A stretch of DNA of 62,261 nt from positions 1 through 62,261 of the IMG/VR virus record IMGVR_UViG_3300018416_002791; one strand, written 5' to 3'. Under the pieces are notes generated by a model. That model did no database searches. It worked only from the letters and a program-made list of their open reading frames with translations, and was not told the origin of the DNA. Shown piece by piece: positions 57,139 to 57,280 of this stretch (position 1 is the first letter of the stretch; the number at the start of each line of letters is the position of its first letter). A program made the position numbers and the translations under genes. The DNA comes from a virus.

Positions 57139-57280
57139 TTAGGTTCTATACAGCAACACAATATATTTCAACCAAGAGGTTACGGGTTCGAGTCCCGTCT
57201 TGCGCTTCGGCACAAGTAGCTCAATGGTAGAGCACATGGCACAATGTAGAGTTAATGACTCTGCGTAGAACCTGTTAAAT
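57139..57280 (+). ncRNA. Y-like RNA unit 3 with circularly permuted tRNA domain
   Basis: Terminal stem AGGTTCTA (57141-57148) with TAGAACCT (57266-57273), TACAGCAA and GTTAAAT in the usual places. Inside, in permuted order: T-arm ACGGG-TTCGAGT-CCCGT (57182-57198), 3' acceptor strand CTTGCGC, cap loop TTCG, 5' acceptor strand GCACAAG (6 of 7 pairs), D-arm GCTC-AATGGTA-GAGC (57219-57233). The ends of the tRNA-like body meet at the anticodon-stem position (CATGG with CCAAG, one mismatch). This is the layout of YrlA-type bacterial Y RNAs. Confidence 0.75.

Follow-up and report, generated by a model that had tools for sequence, protein, structure and literature searches.

A putative Y-RNA-like RNA with a capped, permuted tRNA core beside a Ro60-like phage gene

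Results

Unit 3 combines a permuted tRNA core with a recurrent handle

The window analysed here comprises the 62,261 bases of a virus record from IMG/VR, and in it the feature noted first spans 57139-57280. We interpret the RNA encoded there, termed unit 3 (57141-57273, plus strand), as a probable Y-RNA-like RNA of a phage Ro60-type particle. Judged from its sequence and predicted pairing, it carries a permuted tRNA core, capped at its acceptor end, on a handle that recurs in other loci. All expected parts are present, in the order handle stem, UACAGCAA, T-arm, 3′ acceptor strand, UUCG cap, 5′ acceptor strand, D-arm, handle stem. Unit 3 is one of four units upstream of a Ro-like gene, which follow one plan: a stem, one to three bases, CAGCAA, an interior, the second strand of the stem and UG. 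The features of the region are:

56707-56783, +, unit 1: short handle unit without tRNA module (strict rule; Class I RNA match)
56790-57032, +, unit 2: 243-nt handle unit containing a large insert of unknown nature (strict rule)
57080-57107, +, sigma-70-type promoter-like site for unit 3, TTGACA-16-TATAAT, 12/12 (consensus match, not shown active)
57141-57149, +, handle stem 5′ strand (AGGUUCUAU), pairs with 57265-57273
57150-57156, +, handle motif A-CAGCAA (CAGCAA itself is 57151-57156)
57172-57176, +, putative anticodon-stem 3′ strand CCAAG, positions 39-43 (comparative, weak)
57182-57198, +, T-arm, ACGGG-UUCGAGU-CCCGU, 5/5 pairs (fold and Rfam YrlA match)
57199-57205, +, acceptor 3′ strand (fold and Rfam YrlA match)
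57206-57209, +, UUCG cap closing the acceptor
57210-57216, +, acceptor 5′ strand, 6/7 pairs, one A.C mismatch
57217-57218, +, U8 and A9, preceding the D-arm
57219-57233, +, D-arm, GCUC-AAUGGUA-GAGC, 4/4 pairs (fold and Rfam YrlA match)
57235-57239, +, putative anticodon-stem 5′ strand CAUGG, positions 27-31, 4/5 pairs with 57172-57176
57248-57262, +, side hairpin between module and handle (fold; absent from the initial annotation)
57265-57275, +, handle stem 3′ strand (GUAGAACCU; stem part 57265-57273) and the next G and U
57281-57340, +, unit 4: short handle unit with imperfect stem (by eye), just before the ribosome-binding site
57356-58786, +, gene for a Ro60-like protein (DUF2828 and DUF7788, 476 aa; Pfam and predicted fold), directly downstream of units 1-4
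61456-61572, +, unit 5: second permuted tRNA module in the window (strict handle rule; module by eye)

The minimum-energy fold of 57139-57280 (142 bases) has −42.6 kcal/mol (z = −3.8), a value that none of 200 shuffles matched, and includes the handle, the T-arm, the acceptor with its UUCG cap and the D-arm. Pair probabilities are 0.83-0.99 for the T-arm, 0.78-0.86 for the acceptor (excluding the mismatch), 0.85 for the D-arm and 0.72-1.0 for the handle; an A15-U48 contact is possible. The initial annotation had proposed the order from T-arm to D-arm, a retained T-loop (UUCGAGU) and GG-bearing D-loop (AAUGGUA), and an acceptor end closed by a tetraloop. The identified parts and the fold, with its predicted acceptor, T-arm and D-arm pairing, bear all of this out.

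The same annotation placed the free ends where the anticodon stem should be. A stem is possible there: because 57235-57239 can form four of five pairs with 57172-57176, the free ends may leave through the anticodon loop instead (open form). This reading rests on comparative evidence alone and is not favoured by energy, the stem having a probability of about 0.001 in the isolated fold and costing about 1.1 kcal/mol when added. The seven nucleotides preceding 57172-57176 (AUUUCAA) are readable as an anticodon loop with UUC, again on weak comparative grounds. The ortholog of unit 3 in locus L056, whose Ro-like protein is 77% identical to that of the window, has an anticodon stem with five of five pairs (CCAGU/ACUGG) and bases that differ from those of the window.

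An ordinary tRNA was rejected for unit 3, since neither ARAGORN nor the Rfam search at gathering thresholds called a tRNA there and the acceptor is capped by UUCG. A colinear cloverleaf with a chargeable 3′ end is not present, and this tRNA copy is probably unable to be charged, although no charging data exist. The 3′ half of the module is closest to the tRNA-Glu(UUC) of the window itself (score 36, runner-up 30), a kinship that is suggestive only.

Applied to the whole window, the strict rule returned four units, all on the plus strand (units 1, 2, 3 and 5); unit 4 was missed because of its imperfect stem. Perfect TTGACA-16-TATAAT promoter-like sites were found twice, upstream of units 1 and 3, and no terminator was found within the stretch of units 1-4. 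The interior of unit 2, about 200 nt, has no Rfam match; it is clearly similar to a unit in L057 and only weakly similar to others. Unit 5 sits among ordinary tRNA genes and has an irregular acceptor and a closed anticodon hairpin (AUACU-CUUGAAA-AGUAA, 4/5 pairs, anticodon UGA).

The adjacent gene encodes a protein with a predicted Ro60-like fold

The product of 57356-58786 matches Pfam DUF7788 (E 1.3e-48) and DUF2828 (E 9.9e-22); at E ≤ 0.001 these were its only matches, and TROVE was not among them. A sequence search of solved structures gave nothing significant, and as TROVE chains reached only E 0.26, a fold search was needed. An AlphaFold model was built from 14 sequences (mean pLDDT 72, pTM 0.61). 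With this model, Foldseek placed the TROVE domain, Ro60 structures and Deinococcus Rsr at ranks 1-6 in the PDB, the six structural alignments having TM scores (query) of 0.36-0.52 and identities of 11-17%. The ring-plus-vWA fold of Ro60 is thus predicted for this protein, at the confidence of the model. D279, S281 and S283, the residues of the vWA metal site, are invariant. The protein therefore shares with Ro60/Rsr (TROVE) particles the predicted fold and the metal-site residues, whereas in Pfam it belongs to DUF2828/DUF7788 without a TROVE match.

Among 50,697 phage records, 682 carry a relative of the gene. RtcB was found in only two of the 14 records searched; an RtcB context was rejected as a general rule, and a shared role in RNA repair is for that reason not general. 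A few kilobases upstream of the Ro-like gene the window also contains ClpX-like (51257-52537) and ClpS-like (54515-54811) genes.

The handle recurs beside DUF2828/DUF7788 genes

We applied the handle rule (stem-UACAGCAA...stem-UG) to 194 loci with a Ro-like gene, comprising 100 from IMG/VR (the window included), 15 named phages and 79 genome contigs. Ten loci were omitted as duplicates, incomplete or at contig edges (L008, L013, L015, L021, L023, L063, L097, L123, L133 and L145), and L029-L040 were likewise outside this count. Near-duplicates persist among the 194 loci, hence a set of 225 non-redundant units was also used. Pairing was the criterion for picking handle stems and tRNA likeness that for picking modules, so that only the controls count as evidence.

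The rule found 338 units in 146 loci (88 from IMG/VR, 11 named phages and 47 genome contigs), compared with 14 units on the reversed strands. Sixty six-letter arrangements of CAGCAA gave a median of 21, the next highest being overlapping registers of CAGCAA itself. Letters outside the selected motif are uneven in the non-redundant set, for example A at −10 in 194 of 225 units, and U follows the closing UG in 143. The remaining 48 loci, four named phages among them, had no unit near the gene that satisfied the strict rule. These data indicate that the terminal stem of unit 3 is a handle distinct from that of YrlA and recurrent beside DUF2828/DUF7788 Ro60-like genes, as far as sequence comparison can tell.

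Placement relative to the gene varies. Across the whole genome of Listeria phage A511, all three strict units lie directly upstream of the Ro-like gene. In that of Escherichia phage Alf5, four of eight lie directly downstream and the remainder look like chance. Units also lie downstream of the gene in loci L048 and L050. KVP40 has no unit beside the gene; three of its 14 matches have consensus ends and are located 3-7 kb upstream on the same strand. The 47 bacterial contigs with handle units near a DUF2828-type gene (of 79, L136-L215) include many Clostridia, and their prophage or host origin is unsettled.

Permuted modules retain traces of the tRNA fold

A search of 923 kb of loci for the permuted pattern gave 32 forward matches and one on the reverse strand, an excess over chance, although some of the forward matches were ordinary tandem tRNA genes and were later excluded. 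In handle units, 27 permuted tRNA modules were retained; patterns lacking an upstream handle motif and those with NCCA caps (tandem tRNA genes) had been dropped. These modules come from phages of Escherichia, Bacillus, Mycobacterium, Enterococcus and Sinorhizobium, from other viruses and from bacterial contigs. With NCCA caps already excluded, their caps are 3-10 nt long. All 27 have the downstream handle strand, though only the upstream motif had been required, with stems of at least 5 bp (only 5 bp in two).

In the alignment of the 27 modules, 96.3% of the stem cells pair, and covariation is 0.889 compared with 0.224 in shuffled alignments (0 of 500 as high). Outside the stems, covariation is strongest between tRNA positions 15 and 48, which are Watson-Crick in 21 of 27 modules, a level reached in none of 10,000 shuffles; the search rule did not ask for this tertiary contact. 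The covariation points to descent from, or retention of, the tRNA fold rather than to function, because it may have been inherited from recent parent tRNAs and not been kept by selection.

For the topology count the L056 module was added by hand (n = 28), and a second module in L057 as well as unit 5 were left uncounted. A closed anticodon hairpin precedes the T-arm in 16 modules, 12 of them with U33. Ten of the 28 show an open stem between bases that follow the D-arm and bases that lead up to the variable loop, which makes the anticodon loop the point of entry and exit of the RNA. Together, a closed or open anticodon stem is possible in 25 of 28 modules, whereas 1000 shuffles averaged 6.5 and never exceeded 13; the open form alone, with ten, merely equals the shuffle maximum (mean 3.6). 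The anticodons vary among the modules.

In L057 (at about 2233), the unit orthologous to unit 3 contains a module that, judged by eye, resembles tRNA-Leu; its variable arm is long, and a CCA is encoded, with a spacer behind it. CCA and spacer are as expected if modules arise from tandem tRNA genes, and this unit could be a recently permuted tRNA-Leu, possibly a recent step on that path.

A YrlA-like core and a handle similar to dictyostelid Class I RNA

Rfam YrlA (RF02553) matches 57176-57235 with 37 bits, whereas the gathering score is 69 (E 2.4e-6 with 4227 families and 841 bases; E 4.2e-8 with the YrlA family alone and the window). The match covers model positions 25-83 of 114; positions 1-24 and 84-114, which form the conserved stem of the family, have no match in unit 3, and the consensus of that stem (AUGC.../...AaAcUuG) lacks CAGCAA. 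Canonical YrlA membership was rejected on account of the low score and the unlike stem. The proposal that unit 3 resembles the effector module of YrlA RNA holds for the core, with its T-arm, acceptor, D-arm order, its capped acceptor and its place next to a Ro60-type gene; it fails for the terminal stem, which is the CAGCAA handle, and for the anticodon arm, often whole in relatives of unit 3 and missing from the Rfam YrlA consensus. The phage loci differ further in holding several units each, most of them without a tRNA module. The broader claim of a tRNA mimic that is not a tRNA is supported by the Rfam, Pfam, fold and predicted-structure data, which place a permuted capped core beside a Ro60-like gene.

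Searching E. coli DNA for YrlA relatives returned only 25-base matches (E 8). Searching phage DNA with the core returned mainly short matches, many in tRNA genes, and yielded L038 and L039. In the former, Gordonia phage GMA2 (3541-4318), a tmRNA, a UUCG-capped YrlA-like module and a Pistol ribozyme lie side by side in a tRNA cluster.

The handle closely resembles Rfam Class I RNA (RF01414), at least in primary sequence and pairing, and both common descent and convergence are possible. A single-family search of 11 records, most of them chosen because they have units, gave 16 matches at E ≤ 0.05 (best 5.5e-5). None reaches the gathering cut-off of 41.5 bits, the best score being 29.8. Fourteen of the 16 coincide by coordinates with independently found handle units; the match in a Mycobacterium phage begins at a handle unit, and for that in an Ochrobactrum phage the overlap was not checked. 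Seven units of Aeromonas phage LAh_9 align to the model with 29.6 to 18.4 bits, and unit 1 does so with 15.6 bits (E 8.2 with all families, 0.137 in the single-family search). The terminal stem, the UACAGCAA-type motif and the closing UG are present in the alignments of unit 1 and of phage L054. Seven of 14 control genomes also had some Class I match at E ≤ 1 or better.

According to PMC7919456, Class I RNAs have a short stem, an 11-nt motif beside its 5′ strand and a CUGU end, are said to be unique to dictyostelids and have the RRM protein Rnp1A as known direct partner. Shared with the phage units are the short terminal stem, UUACAGCAA directly after the 5′ strand, CUG at the 3′ end, a variable interior and many copies. 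Class I RNAs differ in being eukaryotic, 42-65 nt long in D. discoideum and without a tRNA module. Class I RNAs have a DUSE promoter element upstream; in the window, a virus record, sigma-70-type promoter-like sites precede units 1 and 3.

Discussion

Several other explanations of unit 3 have to be weighed. It could be a plain YrlA RNA of the Salmonella type with a canonical Rsr as its binding protein, and the T-acceptor-D order matched by the YrlA model would agree with this. The score, however, stays well below gathering, the match stops short of the YrlA stem, and the neighbouring protein is DUF2828/DUF7788 in Pfam and not TROVE, so we regard this as improbable. The units might also be a structured leader of the Ro-like mRNA that is bound by the protein for autoregulation. 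Units 1-4 do form one stretch upstream of the gene without a detected terminator, and unit 4 ends near the ribosome-binding site; but units lie downstream of the gene in L048 and L050 and kilobases away in KVP40, and unit 5 is located among tRNA genes. A leader function is hence rather unlikely. That the modules are functionless debris of tandem tRNA genes, which can produce the same order by chance (as in several NCCA-cap matches), is hard to reconcile with the UUCG cap and with a downstream handle strand in every one of the 27 modules, and we give it very little credence. Permuted tRNA genes are known from algae and likewise have the 3′ half before the 5′ half; unit 3 differs in being capped, handle-bound and without CCA. 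Processing of unit 3 to a working tRNA would find support in the full anticodon arms of many relatives, in the CCA encoded after the acceptor of the L057 unit and in the mention, in PMC10085705, of permuted tRNA genes restored to normal tRNAs. Yet the four-nucleotide cap leaves no room for CCA or a leader, caps remain at 3-10 nt throughout the modules, both ends form part of a conserved handle and ARAGORN makes no call, all of which renders such processing highly improbable.

Harder to dismiss, though still doubtful, is a decoy for the tRNA anticodon nucleases of host defence. The anticodon arm would be displayed so that cutting it costs translation nothing, or the open form would be uncuttable and blocking. 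The closed hairpins in 16 of 28 modules, 12 with U33, fit this idea, and PMC7790460 suggests that the tRNA-like domain of YrlA could inhibit an anticodon nuclease competitively. On the other side, unit 3 itself is an open form without an intact loop, the anticodons vary, and there are no data on a nuclease or a link to defence.

We thus continue to favour a phage Ro60-type particle with unit 3 as its Y-RNA-like component. The handle would bind the ring of the Ro-like protein, which we consider likely, although this is inferred without binding data. The core would protrude from it; that it folds as an L-shaped tRNA mimic is the part we hold with most assurance, in the absence of probing data. 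Its intact elbow would occupy or recruit enzymes that bind tRNA elbows or anticodon arms, and the particle might act as a tether or a decoy during infection. A role as tether or gate for a host RNA enzyme is a serious possibility that falls somewhat short of being probable; a decoy against tRNA-cleaving nucleases is a tentative suggestion. A precedent for tethering an RNA enzyme is the combination of Deinococcus Rsr, Y RNA and PNPase (PMC8058203). The frequent intact anticodon arms lean towards nuclease competition for the relatives and the open unit 3 towards tethering, and the matter is undecided. The function of unit 3 is an inference throughout, without expression, binding or probing data.

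Speculatively, a single handle-defined RNA family might extend across phages, bacterial contigs and social amoebas, with the DUF2828/DUF7788 branch of Ro60-like proteins as partner. Class I RNAs would then be the Y-type RNAs of that branch, and phages would have repeatedly loaded the handle with permuted tRNAs, whose opening lies either within the anticodon loop or at the junction of D-arm and anticodon arm. We think this unlikely to hold in full; if true, it would provide the first candidate Ro60-type protein partner family for the orphan Class I RNAs.

Y RNAs with a tRNA-like domain near Ro60 were reportedly described for many bacterial and phage species by Chen et al. 2014 (RNA 20:1715). 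Phages are stated to carry YrlA in PMC7765460, and for jumbo phages PMC7824862 mentions TROVE proteins whose partner is tRNA-like. A YrlA-like core in a phage is therefore of an already known kind. The literature searched yielded no report of the CAGCAA handle, the anticodon-arm topologies or the Class I link, although a mention of the handle in Chen et al. 2014 or Sim et al. 2020 is not excluded. It is the modular build that alters the view: hundreds of units share a portable Ro-type handle, and different permuted tRNAs are mounted on it in two topologies. By its sequence, the handle marks RNAs that are likely partners of DUF2828/DUF7788 proteins, and with it the ideas of a tRNA mimic and a nuclease decoy become testable in laboratory phages.
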